Made by a program: the position numbers and the translations under genes. A model generated the notes under the pieces. The model did not search any database and was not told the DNA's origin. It worked only from the letters and a program-made list of their open reading frames with translations. Positions 4,313-61,674 of a DNA stretch of 64,000 nt are shown piece after piece. This DNA is from Parvularculaceae bacterium (GTDB taxonomy: Bacteria; Pseudomonadota; Alphaproteobacteria; Caulobacterales; Parvularculaceae). The stretch spans positions 124,001 through 188,000 of the forward strand of contig JACADZ010000078.1 in the NCBI GenBank assembly GCA_013389105.1, given 5' to 3'. How positions within the stretch are numbered: position 1 is the first letter of the stretch; every line of letters begins with the position of its first letter.

Positions 4313-4777
4313 TCAAAAGCGCCCTTGCGCGCGGTAGGCGGCGGCGAAGGGCGCATAATCCTTGGGCTGACCTTCGCTCGTGAGCGCCCCGAAGCGCACC
4401 CAGGTTTGCGCGCTCTTGGTCCAGATGTCGCCGACCGGCTCGACCCAGCTCGTGTCGTCGAGAGTGCCCGCGCGCAGGGAGAGCATCCCGCTCGAAGGGA
4501 CGGCGCCGTTGACGATCCGGCCGCCGCACTCTCCGCAAAAGAGGCCGTAGCGCAAAGCGCCCGAGTCGGCGCGCCACTCGACGCGCTTCGGCGCGCCCTT
4601 GGTGAACGCGAAGCCGCTCTCAGGGACGGCCGCGGCCGTCGTGAAGGCGCTCCCGGTGATTTTCTGGCAGTTCGTGCAGTGACAATTATAGATCATGACC
4701 GGCGGCGCCGAGAGGGCGTAACGGAGCGCGCTGCAGCAGCAGCCGCCTGTCTGAGGGAGCTTCGTTTTCGCGGTCAT
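4313..4777 (-). CDS. GFA family zinc-binding protein
   Basis: 154 residues. It carries the cysteine pattern of the GFA (glutathione-dependent formaldehyde-activating enzyme-like) family: GGCCCSALRY near the N-terminus, NCHCTNCQK at about 36-44 and FCGECGG at about 83-89, which together bind structural and catalytic zinc. Most members have no proven substrate, so a formaldehyde role is not claimed. I chose the ATG at 4777 because a good Shine-Dalgarno (AGGAGG) precedes it and the usual GFA start follows; an in-frame extension upstream overlaps flgK and is low complexity. It converges on the rhodanese gene with a 14-base gap. Confidence 0.88.
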   Translation of the reverse strand: MTAKTKLPQTGGCCCSALRYALSAPPVMIYNCHCTNCQKITGSAFTTAAAVPESGFAFTKGAPKRVEWRADSGALRYGLFCGECGGRIVNGAVPSSGMLSLRAGTLDDTSWVEPVGDIWTKSAQTWVRFGALTSEGQPKDYAPFAAAYRAQGRF

Positions 4778-4841
4778 CGGCGCCTCCTGTCGGAGTCCGG
4801 GATCTACCACGGATTCGCGGCCGCCGGCGGAAGCCGAAGCC

Positions 4842-4857
4842 TGGCGCGGCGGTTGCA
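4842..4857 (+). promoter_or_regulatory. Sigma-54 (-24/-12) promoter for flgK-flgL
   Basis: TGGCGCG-GCGG-TTGCA matches the sigma-54 consensus TGGCACG-N4-TTGCA at all but one position. GG (4843-4844) and GC (4855-4856) are separated by exactly ten bases. Transcription would start near 4868, about 140 bases before flgK. Caulobacter-type hook and hook-associated genes are commonly sigma-54 dependent, so the location fits. Confidence 0.75.
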
Positions 4858-4979
4858 ACATCGAGCCTTGAGATGAGCCGTCACCGACGATACGCCCCCG
4901 AAAACGCCGGAAGGCGCGCGCCCTTGCCGGCGCCGGCGCCGCGGCGCCCGGCAATTCCCGCCGGGTCGGACCCGCAAAG

Positions 4980-4996
4980 CCGGCAAGTCTTGCCGG
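4980..4996. repeat. Perfect inverted repeat in the flgK leader
   Basis: CCGGCAAG-T-CTTGCCGG, two perfect 8-base arms around one base, ends ten bases before the flgK ATG and abuts the G-rich ribosome binding region (GGGGGCGG). With a one-base centre it is a poor RNA hairpin, so a dimeric-protein binding site is at least as likely. No regulator can be named. Confidence 0.5.
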
Positions 4997-5006
4997 GGGC
5001 GGTCCC

Positions 5007-6353
5007 ATGAGCCTTACGGTCGCGCTCAACACCGCCGTTTCCGGCCTCTTCGCCAATCAGCAGGCGATCGCGGCGACGTCGGAGAACGTCGCCAACGTGA
5101 ACACGGCCGACTTCACGCGCCGCGAAGCGACGTTCTACACGGACGCCATTCCGGACCAGTTCGCAGGCGTCAGCGTCGAGATCACCCGCGCCGCGGTCGA
5201 CCGCTTCCTACAGGCCGGCGGCTATCGCAGCGCGTCCGAAGCCGCCGCCGCCTCGGCGATCAGCGACGCGCTCTCGCGCATCGACGCCTCTCACGGGGCG
5301 CCCGGCGAAAAAATTTCCTACGCGAACGCGCTCGACGACGCCTTTGCCGCGCTCGTCGCCGCAGCCTCCAATCCGTCCTCGCTCGCGGCGCGCGCGGACG
5401 CGCTCGCGGCGCTGGACGCAGCTTTCGCCGCCTTCGGGCGCACGCAGGAGGCGATCGATTCCGAAATCGCCGGCGCCGAAGGGCGGCTTGCCGCCGACAT
5501 TTCCCGCGTGAACGCGCTGCTCGCGGACATACACCGGCTGAATGCGATCGTTCCCGACAGCGCCGGCGCCGGCGACCTGCTCGACGCCCGCCTCGCCGAG
5601 CTCTCGAAGCTCGTTTCTATCAATGTCTCGCGCAACGATCTCGGCCAGGCGATCGTTTCCGCGGGCGACGGGACAGTGATCGCAAGCGCCGGCGGCTATG
5701 CGGCGCTCGGCTATGCGGGGAGCCTGCTGACGCTCTCCGCAGTCGACCCCGACACGGGCGGAACGACGCTGACCAACGGCGACGCCGGCAGCTTGTGCGC
5801 GGCCGGCGAGGTCGCAGGACTTCTGAAGCTTATCGGCGACGACCTGCCGGAGCTCGCGCAGCTTGTGTCCGACCGAGCCGGCGCGGTCGCGAACGCGCTC
5901 AATTCGGCCTACGCGCAGAACAGCGTGGTCGGCGCAAGCGCGCCGACGACGGACGCGCTGCTTGTCTCGAGCCCCGACGGGCGATGGTCGGTCAACGCCG
6001 CCCTGCTCGGCGATCCGTCGCGCTTTGCGATCGCACGACCCGTCGGCGGACCCGCTGGTCTCAACGACGGGGCCGGCGCGACGGCCCTCGCTTTAATCGG
6101 CGACAGCGCAGCAGCGCGCGACGTCGCCGAGTCGGTCGCCCTGATCGGATCGGCCGCGAAGAACGCGGGCCTTCGCGCCGAAACCATGAGCGCAGTCGAA
6201 CGCGAGATCTCGGCGCGCGTCGCCTCGGAGAACGGGGTCAATCTCGACGAGGAACTTTCAAACCTCATCCTTTACCAGCGCGCCTACGGTGCGAACGCCC
6301 GCGTCATCGCCGCCGTGGACGAGCTCTGGCAAACCCTTCTGAACGTGATCTGA
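5007..6353 (+). CDS. flgK: Flagellar hook-associated protein 1 (FlgK)
   Basis: 448 residues. FlgK forms the first junction ring between flagellar hook and filament and is secreted by the flagellar export apparatus. The N-terminus MSLTVALNTAVSGLFANQQA, with SENVANVNTADFTRREA, is the conserved rod/hook family start. The C-terminus SNLILYQRAYGANARVIAAV is the matching terminal helix. It is shorter than the enterobacterial protein (about 550), with the difference in the central exposed domains. It lies downstream of the sigma-54 promoter at 4842 and four bases before flgL. No damage is seen. Confidence 0.95.
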   Translation: MSLTVALNTAVSGLFANQQAIAATSENVANVNTADFTRREATFYTDAIPDQFAGVSVEITRAAVDRFLQAGGYRSASEAAAASAISDALSRIDASHGAPGEKISYANALDDAFAALVAAASNPSSLAARADALAALDAAFAAFGRTQEAIDSEIAGAEGRLAADISRVNALLADIHRLNAIVPDSAGAGDLLDARLAELSKLVSINVSRNDLGQAIVSAGDGTVIASAGGYAALGYAGSLLTLSAVDPDTGGTTLTNGDAGSLCAAGEVAGLLKLIGDDLPELAQLVSDRAGAVANALNSAYAQNSVVGASAPTTDALLVSSPDGRWSVNAALLGDPSRFAIARPVGGPAGLNDGAGATALALIGDSAAARDVAESVALIGSAAKNAGLRAETMSAVEREISARVASENGVNLDEELSNLILYQRAYGANARVIAAVDELWQTLLNVI

Positions 6354-6357
6354 TCTC

Positions 6358-7272
6358 ATGCCCCGCATCTCAGACATCGGCCTTCAGCACATTCTCCTTC
6401 AGAGCTTCCAGCGCGCGCAGGGTGCGGCGCAGGAGCGGCAGATCCAGCTGGCGACCGGCAAAGTCTCCTCAAGCTATGGCGGCCTTGAACGCGCCGCAGA
6501 GCTCCTCGCCGCCGAAGGCGTGCTGGCGCGCGCCAGCGCCTATGACGGCGCCGCCAAGACGGCCCTCGCTCGACTCCAGACGCAGGAGGCGGGCATGAGA
6601 ACGGTCGCCGACGCAGTCGCGCTTATCCGGGAGCGGATGGTTCAGGCGCTCGCGACCGGATCTTCCGAACTGCTCGTTCCCGAAGTCGAGACCGCCGCGG
6701 GACGCGTGATCGCCGGCCTCAACTCCAGACTCGGCGGCGTCTACGTGTTCGGCGGCGCCGACGGGACGTCGCCGCCGCTGGCCGCCCGCTCGCTCGCCGA
6801 TTTCGGCGCGGCGTCCGATACGGACGATCTTTTCCTCGACGCGGCGCGCGTGCGCCTGCCGGTCGAAGAAGGCGTTTCCGTCGATGGCGGCGCGACGGCG
6901 CTTGAGATCGGGGGCGCGATCGCCGCCGAACTGAAGGATCTCGCCAACGCGGAAGTCGCGCTCGGGCCCTTCAGCGGCGAGCTGACGGCCGCACAGCGCG
7001 ATTTTCTGATCGACAAGGTCGCGCGCCTCGACGCGATCGCCGCCGACGTCTATCGCGAACTCGGGCTCAACGGCGTCGCGCAGGGGCAGGCGGAAGACGC
7101 GCGCCAGCGCAACATCCAGCGCCGCGACCTCGCCGAAATCGTCGCCGCCGACATCGAGGACGCGGACCTCGCCGAGGTCGTCGCGCGACTCAATCAGGAC
7201 CGCCTCGCCGTCGAGGCCGCGGCGCGGTCGCTCAGCGTCGCGACCGAGCTTTCGCTGCTCAACTATTTGTAG
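6358..7272 (+). CDS. flgL: Flagellar hook-associated protein 3 (FlgL)
   Basis: 304 residues, the usual alphaproteobacterial length. FlgL is the second hook-filament junction protein and belongs to the flagellin fold. The N-terminal helix region (MPRISDIGLQHILLQSFQRA, then QIQLATGKVSSSYGG) and C-terminal helix (VVARLNQDRLAVEAAARSL) are flagellin-like. VYVFGGADGTSPPL sits at the start of the variable domain. The ATG follows the flgK stop by four bases, so the pair is one operon. It is convergent with the sulfotransferase gene, five bases away. Confidence 0.93.
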   Translation: MPRISDIGLQHILLQSFQRAQGAAQERQIQLATGKVSSSYGGLERAAELLAAEGVLARASAYDGAAKTALARLQTQEAGMRTVADAVALIRERMVQALATGSSELLVPEVETAAGRVIAGLNSRLGGVYVFGGADGTSPPLAARSLADFGAASDTDDLFLDAARVRLPVEEGVSVDGGATALEIGGAIAAELKDLANAEVALGPFSGELTAAQRDFLIDKVARLDAIAADVYRELGLNGVAQGQAEDARQRNIQRRDLAEIVAADIEDADLAEVVARLNQDRLAVEAAARSLSVATELSLLNYL

Positions 7273-7277
7273 AATCG

Positions 7278-8864
7278 CTAGGCGTCGTAGCCATAATATT
7301 CCGTCCACGGATTTATCAGCGGCAGGACGGGCTCCAGCTCCGCGCGGTAATTGCGCCACTTGCCGACTGACGAAGAGTAGAGCGGCTGTATCACCTGGCG
7401 CGCGCTCGGAGTCCTGATGTTGCGGGCCCGCGCCGTCTCGTGGAACCGCCGCAGATCGTCCGACCATGGAAGGTCGAGAAAAGCGAGGAGCCTGCCGATC
7501 TCGCCGTCGAAATCCGCGACCACGCGCTCGTAGCGGACCTCGTGGACCACCAGCGGCAGCTTCTTGCGCCAGAGGACGCCGAGGCGCATCACCTGATCGT
7601 AGTAGGCGGCGGCGGTCCCGAGATCGAGAAAGCGGTACATGGCCGCGTTCATGCCGAAGGTCTGCTGAAAGCAGCTCAAGACGACGTCGCGCGGGTCGCG
7701 CAGCGCAAAGATGATTCTGGCTTTCGGGAAAACGAGGTGAATGAGTCCGAGCAGGGCGGTGTCGAGCGGCAGCTTGTCGATCACAAGGCTTGCGTCCGCG
7801 CCTGCAAGCGCCTTCGCCCGCGCCCAGTAGGCGCCGCGCAGCCTCGCAATATCGGCGTCGGTCAGGTCTTTCCACCGCTCGAGAGCGCCGGGCGCCATGA
7901 CCAGCTCGAGCCAGGCGTCCTGAATGCATTCCTTTTCCTCGAGGACGCACAGCGTCGGGAATGTCGAAAGGATCTGGTCGAGCATGGTCGTGCCCGAACG
8001 CGGGAAGCCGACAAAAAAGACGGGGTCCGGATCGGCGAAGCCCTCCGTATGCCGCCAGATCGACGCCGGCGCCTCGCGCGCGAAGGCTTCCAGCCGCACA
8101 AGCGTGTCGGGGGTTCGCGGACCCGACACGCCGGAATAGGCCTCGGCGTATTGCGCGCGCATGACGGCGTTCGCCGCGGCGCAGTCGGCGAACGACTCGG
8201 CGAAGCGTGAGAGCTTTTCGAGCGCGCGAGCGCGCATGCCGTGGAGGATGGCGCGGTTCGCGGGCGCGAGCGGCAAGGCAAGCGCGTCGCTCGTGCGCGC
8301 CACGACGGCCGCATGGTCCCCGGCCCGGGCGTCGATGTCGGCGAGCGTCATGCGCGCCAGAGCGTTCTTCGGATCGACGGCGAGCGCGCGGTTCGCCATT
8401 TCGCGCGCACGTTCGATTTCATGCCGAGATTCAAGATGGCGCGCATACTTGCCGAGCGTCTCGGCGTGCCTTGGATCAAGCGCGAGCGCGCGCTCGAACC
8501 AGGATTCGGCCCCGCTGTCGCCCATCGCCGTCAGCGTCGATGCGAGGTTGTGAACCGCATCGATGAAAGCCGGCTGCGCCCGCACCGCCTTCTCGAGCGC
8601 GGCGCGCGACGCCGCGAGGTCGCCGCGCTCGCGGTAAAGGATGCCGAGCGAATTGAGGATCGGCGCATGATTCGGCGCTGCGCGCGCCGCCCGAAGGAAC
8701 GCGTCGAGCGCCTCGGCGTTGCGGCCCTGGCGCCACTTCACGAGGCCGAGGATCTGCAACGCGTTCGGATCACCAGGCGCGCGCGCCAGCACCGCCTGCG
8801 CGCCGGCGGCCGCGCGATCGAGATCGCCCGCGCGCGCTGCGGCCATGGCCGCCTCGATTGTCAT
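7278..8864 (-). CDS. TPR-sulfotransferase
   Basis: About 528 residues. The N-terminal half (to about 250) is a run of tetratricopeptide repeats (GDPNALQILGLVKWRQGRNA, APILNSLGILYRERGDLAAS). The C-terminal half is a PAPS-dependent sulfotransferase with the 5'-phosphosulfate loop FFVGFPRSGTTMLDQIL and the 3'-phosphate motif FALRDPRDVVLSCFQQ. It should move sulfate from PAPS to a protein or glycan; the acceptor is unknown. The ATG at 8864 fits the first helix; a TTG at 8879 would add five residues. It ends five bases from flgL on the opposite strand, so a link to filament modification is possible but unproven. Confidence 0.9.
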   Translation of the reverse strand: MTIEAAMAAARAGDLDRAAAGAQAVLARAPGDPNALQILGLVKWRQGRNAEALDAFLRAARAAPNHAPILNSLGILYRERGDLAASRAALEKAVRAQPAFIDAVHNLASTLTAMGDSGAESWFERALALDPRHAETLGKYARHLESRHEIERAREMANRALAVDPKNALARMTLADIDARAGDHAAVVARTSDALALPLAPANRAILHGMRARALEKLSRFAESFADCAAANAVMRAQYAEAYSGVSGPRTPDTLVRLEAFAREAPASIWRHTEGFADPDPVFFVGFPRSGTTMLDQILSTFPTLCVLEEKECIQDAWLELVMAPGALERWKDLTDADIARLRGAYWARAKALAGADASLVIDKLPLDTALLGLIHLVFPKARIIFALRDPRDVVLSCFQQTFGMNAAMYRFLDLGTAAAYYDQVMRLGVLWRKKLPLVVHEVRYERVVADFDGEIGRLLAFLDLPWSDDLRRFHETARARNIRTPSARQVIQPLYSSSVGKWRNYRAELEPVLPLINPWTEYYGYDA

Positions 8865-8912
8865 TGGATCGTTCGCCAATTGAGCGCTTTCTCCAAGGTT
8901 TGACCCGCGACC

Positions 8913-60172: not shown

Positions 60173-61674
60173 GTGGCGTTAGCTCCGAAACTAGAATTCA
60201 GGCAATCCCAGCAGCTGGTGATGACGCCCCAGCTGCAGCAGGCGATCAAGCTTCTGCAGCTCTCCAACCTCGAACTCGCCGAGTTTGTCGAAGACCAGAT
60301 CGAACAGAACCCGCTGCTCGAGCGGGCGGATGGGGAGCCGGGGCCCGCCGAGGAACCGCCGGTTGAACCTGACGCCGCCGACGGCCTCGACGACGAGGCC
60401 CCGATCGATCTGTCCCGAGATGACACGGCGCTCAAGGCCCGCGACGATCTCGACAGCGATTCCGACGACGAGCCAGGGGCCGGGCGAACCGCCGAAGCCG
60501 ACTTCAAGGTCAACGAATGGGCCTCCGCCGCCGGCGGCGGCTCGCTTGACGACGACGAGCGCGAATTCGGCGCGACGCTGAAGCAGAACATTTCGCTTCG
60601 AGATCATCTCGGCGAACAGCTGAAGCTTGCGACCCGCGATCCGTTCGAACTCTTTCTCGGATCTTATCTCATCGATCTCATCGACGACGCCGGCTATCTC
60701 GGCGAAAGCCTCTCCGCCATCGCCGAACGTCTCGGGGCGGACGAAGCGGATGTCGAGCGCGTGCTGAAACTAATCCAGACCTTCGATCCGAGCGGCGTCG
60801 GGGCCCGAGACTTCAAGGAGTGCCTGCGCCTGCAGCTTATCGAACGCGACCGTTTCGATCCCGCCATGGCCGCCTTCGTCGACAACATCGAATTGCTGGC
60901 GAAAGGCGATCTCAAGGCGCTGATGAAAGTCACGGGCGCTGACGAGGAAGACGTGCGCGACATGATTTCCGAGGTGCGTTCGCTGACGCCCAAGCCGGGC
61001 TACGCCTACGGGGCGAAACAGTCCAGGTCGTCGCGCCCGACGTCTTCGTGAGCAAAGCGGCGGACGGCGGCTGGAAGATCGAACTCAACAACGACACTAT
61101 GCCCAAAGTGCTGGTGAACCAGCGCTATTACGCGGAGATATCGCGGGCGAGTTCGCGCGACGCCGACAAGACGTTCCTCAACGAACAACTCGCCAACGCC
61201 AACTGGCTGGTGAAGAGCCTCGACCAGCGGGCGCGAACCATCTTGAAGGTCGCGAGCGAGATCGTGCGCCAGCAGGACGCCTTCTTCGTACTCGGCGTGA
61301 AATATTTGCGCCCGCTCAATCTCAAGGTCGTGGCCGACGCCATTTCCATGCACGAATCAACGGTGAGCCGCGTGACCGCCAACAAATACATGGCGACGCC
61401 GCGGGGTCTGTTCGAACTGAAGTACTTTTTTACGGCGGCGATCGCCTCGAGCGAAGGCGGCGAGGCCCACTCCGCGGAAGCAGTGCGGCATCGCATTCGC
61501 GAACTGATCGCCAGCGAGGACCCGGAGAATGTCCTGTCGGACGATCGAATCGTGGAAATCCTGCGGGCGGACGGAGTCGATATCGCGCGACGGACCGTCG
61601 CCAAGTATCGCGAGACGCTGAACATTCCCTCCTCGGTGCAACGCCGCCGACAGGCGGCGCGGGCGGCGATTTAG
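60173..61674 (+). pseudogene. rpoN: rpoN (sigma-54) interrupted by a one-base frameshift
   Basis: From GTG at 60173 the first part reads region I (MTPQLQQAIKLLQLSNLELA, EFVEDQIEQNPLLERADG) and the core-binding region to about residue 280 (LTPKPGYAYG). It then runs out of frame and stops at 61049-61051. The other frame continues with VVAPDVFVSKAADGGWKIEL, the HTH (ISMHESTVSRVTANKYM) and the RpoN box ARRTVAKYR (61585-61611), ending 61674. One extra G in the GGGG run at 61010-61013 restores a 500-residue sigma-54. It may be a real lesion or a homopolymer sequencing error. It lies between lptB and hpf, the usual order. Confidence 0.9.

Follow-up and report, generated by a model that had tools for sequence, protein, structure and literature searches.

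Comparison among related genomes indicates that positions 4842–4857, upstream of flgKL, are a genuine and widely conserved Caulobacter-type sigma-54 promoter with predicted activator sites downstream. Our reading, which we hold to be very probable, is that this is the flaN-type promoter of a late flgKL operon, driven by FlbD from downstream, and that the rpoN frame break in the same DNA most probably reflects a mistake in the assembly, a minority allele or a very recent mutation. The window, that is, the whole stretch of 64,000 nucleotides analyzed, is contig C25, positions 124001–188000, from a draft genome of a Parvularculaceae bacterium (3.03 Mb in 234 contigs). Its relevant features are collected in Table 1.

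Table 1. Features of the flgKL control region, the adjoining genes and the two parts of rpoN, in window positions.
Feature	Position	Strand	Basis or remark
GFA-family gene, divergent from flgK, in the place of the relatives' hook operon	4313–4777	-	PF04828, 98.5 bits
Sigma-54 promoter of flgKL (-24 TGG / -12 TTGCA)	4842–4857	+	motif; conservation upstream of flgK
Predicted 139-nt flgKL leader with activator sites	4868–5006	+	predicted from the -12 element
First FlbD/ftr-like inverted repeat, CCCGGCAATTCCCGCCGGG	4947–4965	.	center about +89; relatives have repeats of this kind
Second FlbD/ftr-like inverted repeat, CCGGCAAGTCTTGCCGG	4980–4996	.	center about +121; palindrome save the central three bases
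flgK, hook-associated protein 1, 448 aa	5007–6353	+	TIGR02492, 191 bits, above the equivalog cut-off of 170.75
flgL-like hook-associated gene, 304 aa	6358–7272	+	NF006489, TIGR02550; place after flgK
rpoN, N-terminal part (activator-interacting, most of core-binding domain)	60173–61051	+	PF00309, PF04963
rpoN, C-terminal part (DNA-binding domain), other frame	61048–61674	+	PF04552, 236 bits

The sigma-54 promoter upstream of flgK

The sequence TGGCGCGGCGGTTGCA on the forward strand at 4842–4857 reads TGGCGCG-GCGG-TTGCA, precisely the TGGCGCG-N4-TTGCA motif with exact -24/-12 spacing that an earlier note on this DNA had described: GG at 4843–4844 is followed by ten bases and then by GC at 4855–4856 (GG-N10-GC). 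Its single departure from the sigma-54 consensus TGGCACG-N4-TTGC is G for A in TGGCACG, and a search of the window for TGGCRCGNNNNTTGCW with up to one mismatch returned this site alone. From the -12 element at 4856, the predicted +1 of flgKL falls at 4868. The downstream gene of the pair scores 79 bits against the flagellin profile NF006489 and 60 bits against the FlgL profile TIGR02550, both under cut-off. A TPR-sulfotransferase gene (7278–8879) lies convergent with it.

Genome-wide, TGGCRCGNNNNTTGC gave 14 matches, most of them inside other open frames, versus 10 with the reversed pattern. The motif alone is thus not enriched, and such counts were dropped as a discriminator, true sites being inseparable from chance matches. 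These matches could suggest that the one before flgK is itself due to chance and that flgKL is transcribed from a different promoter, but this is very improbable in view of its conserved position. Among flgK loci sampled from the same genus, family and order, 19 (the window's own counted in) have a flgK similar to the window's, and 17 of the 19 carry TGG-N8-TTGC 160–226 bp upstream of the flgK ATG, against an expectation of 0.56 loci from dinucleotide shuffles; in the window's genus and its neighbors the site stands at -165 to -170. No like-placed TGG-N8-TTGC site occurs on the opposite strand of the 19 loci, nor upstream of any of nine flgK genes of the other type. One of the two exceptions to the strict pattern, G004, shows a comparably placed AGG-N8-TTGC, spotted by eye; at the other, G016, there is no clear promoter site. 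The named relatives are mostly Parvularculaceae, Marinicaulis MAGs among them, and ten named flgK loci give the same result, several being genomes already in the main sample. We judge the flgKL promoter real because of position and conservation, the motif taken alone being weak evidence. Through the 17 of 19 loci, the proposal of a sigma-54 promoter before flgKL now has stronger support than the earlier note could give it.

The other type of flgK (about 487 aa) is found in some genomes of the same genus or family (L046–L055), where it has neither a sigma-54 site nor ftr-like repeats. A few genomes, such as G007, have both types.

Downstream repeats and probable control by FlbD

Both inverted repeats sit between the sigma-54 promoter and the flgK ATG. 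The repeat at 4980–4996 scores 14/14 positions and was matched by 0 of 200 shuffles, under a model defined from these sequences plus known ftr sites; putative FlbD binding is read from that model, on which we take the repeats at 4947–4965 and 4980–4996 to be FlbD/ftr-like. Repeats of this kind close to the flgK ATG beat 95% of shuffles in 17 of the 19 loci. Genome-wide, the core palindrome was found six times, and three of these copies lie within about 26 bases upstream of flgK, fliO and fliQ. Similar repeats accompany the flagellin gene on another contig (C17), together with a -24/-12 site that is a weaker match because CGG replaces TGG.

Five clear sigma-54 activators are encoded in the genome. 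FlbD exceeds its equivalog cut-off (NF050807, 775 bits against 750) and belongs to the gene run fliG-fliN-flbD-flhA-flhF; a PspF-like activator adjoins pspA and pspC, and NtrX and NtrC-like activators are also present. FliX was detected as a partial match of 58.5 bits that begins at position 50 of the profile; a contig end appears to truncate the gene. The genome encodes both FlbD and, in partial form, FliX, and ftr-like repeats lie near the promoter, as in the FlbD/ftr-controlled class III promoters of Caulobacter. Caulobacter FlbD, which has FliX as its partner, recognizes ftr sites and activates sigma-54 genes, while some of the early genes are repressed by it (PMC3930126; PMC3096577), and flaN/flbG divergent units with a sigma-54 promoter and downstream ftr2 and ftr3 are described in the title of a 1993 paper cited in PMC3096577.

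By analogy, sigma-54 RNA polymerase would bind the -24/-12 elements at 4842–4857, and FliX would restrain FlbD until the early flagellar parts had been built. FlbD would bind the inverted repeats downstream of the start, which are centered within the leader near +89 and +121; bound FlbD would drive open-complex formation and so turn flgKL on late in flagellar assembly. The flgKL promoter is one of an already known type, sigma-54/FlbD. It resembles that of Caulobacter crescentus flaN in that a flgK-type gene is preceded by a sigma-54 promoter with two ftr-like elements downstream of the start, and in that the genome encodes FlbD and FliX. The likeness extends to the Caulobacter class III/IV hook and flagellin promoters, in that sigma-54 sites with ftr-like repeats precede fliK-flgD-flgE and flagellin here, although the flagellin site differs by its CGG. 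Sigma-54 also serves mid-stage flagellar genes in the gammaproteobacterial FleQ/FlrC hierarchies, whereas the putative activator here is FlbD with FliX. Caulobacter uses no FliA (review PMC3930126).

The divided hook-operon and flgK control region

The hook-associated gene flaN of Phenylobacterium adjoins, and is divergent from, a hook-length gene, flgD and flgE (PMC2529317); of this layout, the window contains the flaN half. All 12 named relatives with flanking sequence have the hook operon just before flgK in divergent orientation, and a second sigma-54 site lies there on the opposite strand. In Caulobacter, too, the two units are divergent and share the region between them, whereas in this genome fliK-flgD-flgE stands behind glyQ on contig C175, apart from the flgK contig C25, with a sigma-54 site and enhancer-like sequence of its own. 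The promoter region of this hook operon aligns with those of the relatives over about 130 bases, the enhancer-like sequence lying within the alignment. This alignment argues that a rearrangement separated the hook-operon and flgK halves and that the sites were kept on both sides. Both genes are interior to their contigs, which is evidence against a contig-end artefact behind the split.

The two halves of the control region correspond to window 4779–4842 and L117:2021–4408, each with a sigma-54 site and enhancer-like repeats. SciP, an inhibitor of CtrA, is encoded directly after flgE (L117:1577–1906), and the phage-shock group pspF-pspA-pspC, another user of sigma-54, lies near the hook operon (L117:6240–9200).

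The rpoN frame break and the expression of flgKL

The earlier note had also reported a frameshift in rpoN within this window and had argued that, if it was real and no second rpoN existed, flgKL should be silent. The N and C parts are indeed in different frames; rpoN has lptB on one side and hpf on the other, and all RpoN domains are present over the two frames, with a sequencing error possible. The search for another rpoN that the note had proposed found no second copy in this 94.4% complete draft. Both parts of rpoN are conserved. The reading frame changes next to four G residues (GGGG, 61010–61013), and the C part extends for 220 codons without a stop, keeps the RpoN box and is 75–89% identical to intact relatives, reaching 89% with G005. 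By its RpoN C part, this genome is nearest to G005, a genome without FlbD-type flgK. Every relative with a full-length match has rpoN in one frame; the match in G012 is short at its end, and G015 (78% complete) gave no rpoN match.

A frameshift scan over 0.67 Mb of this genome, comparing about 150 gene regions with relatives, returned seven cases, of which rpoN was the only convincing one. The six others, all on C18, were judged to be N-terminal extensions into neighboring genes, by eye at the junctions and with no formal test. Since the sampled genes have no other convincing frameshift, general indel noise does not explain the break in rpoN. The comparator genomes contributed three similar frameshift-like cases to the scan; such pairs lie at G003:C55:59959–62593 (L175–L176) and G007:C2:39503–41687 (L162–L163).

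An assembly not riddled with indels and a single rpoN would both agree with a break that is real and fixed, leaving a lineage without sigma-54 in which flgKL, the hook operon, flagellin and the phage-shock genes would be silent. We nevertheless regard such a loss as rather unlikely. The GGGG run at the break, the open and conserved C part and the intact genes of the relatives all speak against it, as do the open frames of the sampled sigma-54 users, namely FlbD, PspF, the hook operon, flagellin, flgK and flgL. These features are at least as compatible with an artefact, a minority allele or a very recent mutation as with a settled loss, and a single consensus error or very recent mutation could be the cause. 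That sigma-54 is made as two chains, an N part ending at TGA 61049–61051 and a C part restarting at GTG 61048–61050, is scarcely credible and the least probable of these alternatives: the stop does overlap a possible start, but the relatives have one frame, the cut falls within the core-binding domain, and the GTG has no clear upstream ribosome-binding site. With a draft assembly and the same features at and around the break, the proposal that flgKL should be silent proved unsupported. Because the break in rpoN appears to be either recent or an assembly slip, flgKL cannot be called silent from sequence, and its silence is unproven.

We therefore favor a flaN-type, FlbD-driven flgKL promoter in a genome whose rpoN is recently or only apparently broken. 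There is a lesser chance that the break is real and that sigma-54 was lost so recently that its flagellar and stress regulon remains intact, which would make this bacterium a natural knock-out caught before decay. If so, it would offer a clean natural test of a whole sigma-54 regulon after loss of its factor. The conservation described here extends the flaN arrangement, with its downstream-activated sigma-54 promoter, across the Parvularculaceae and related families, and the separated flgK and hook-operon units would be a natural case of a shared control region that was split with its sites kept on each half.
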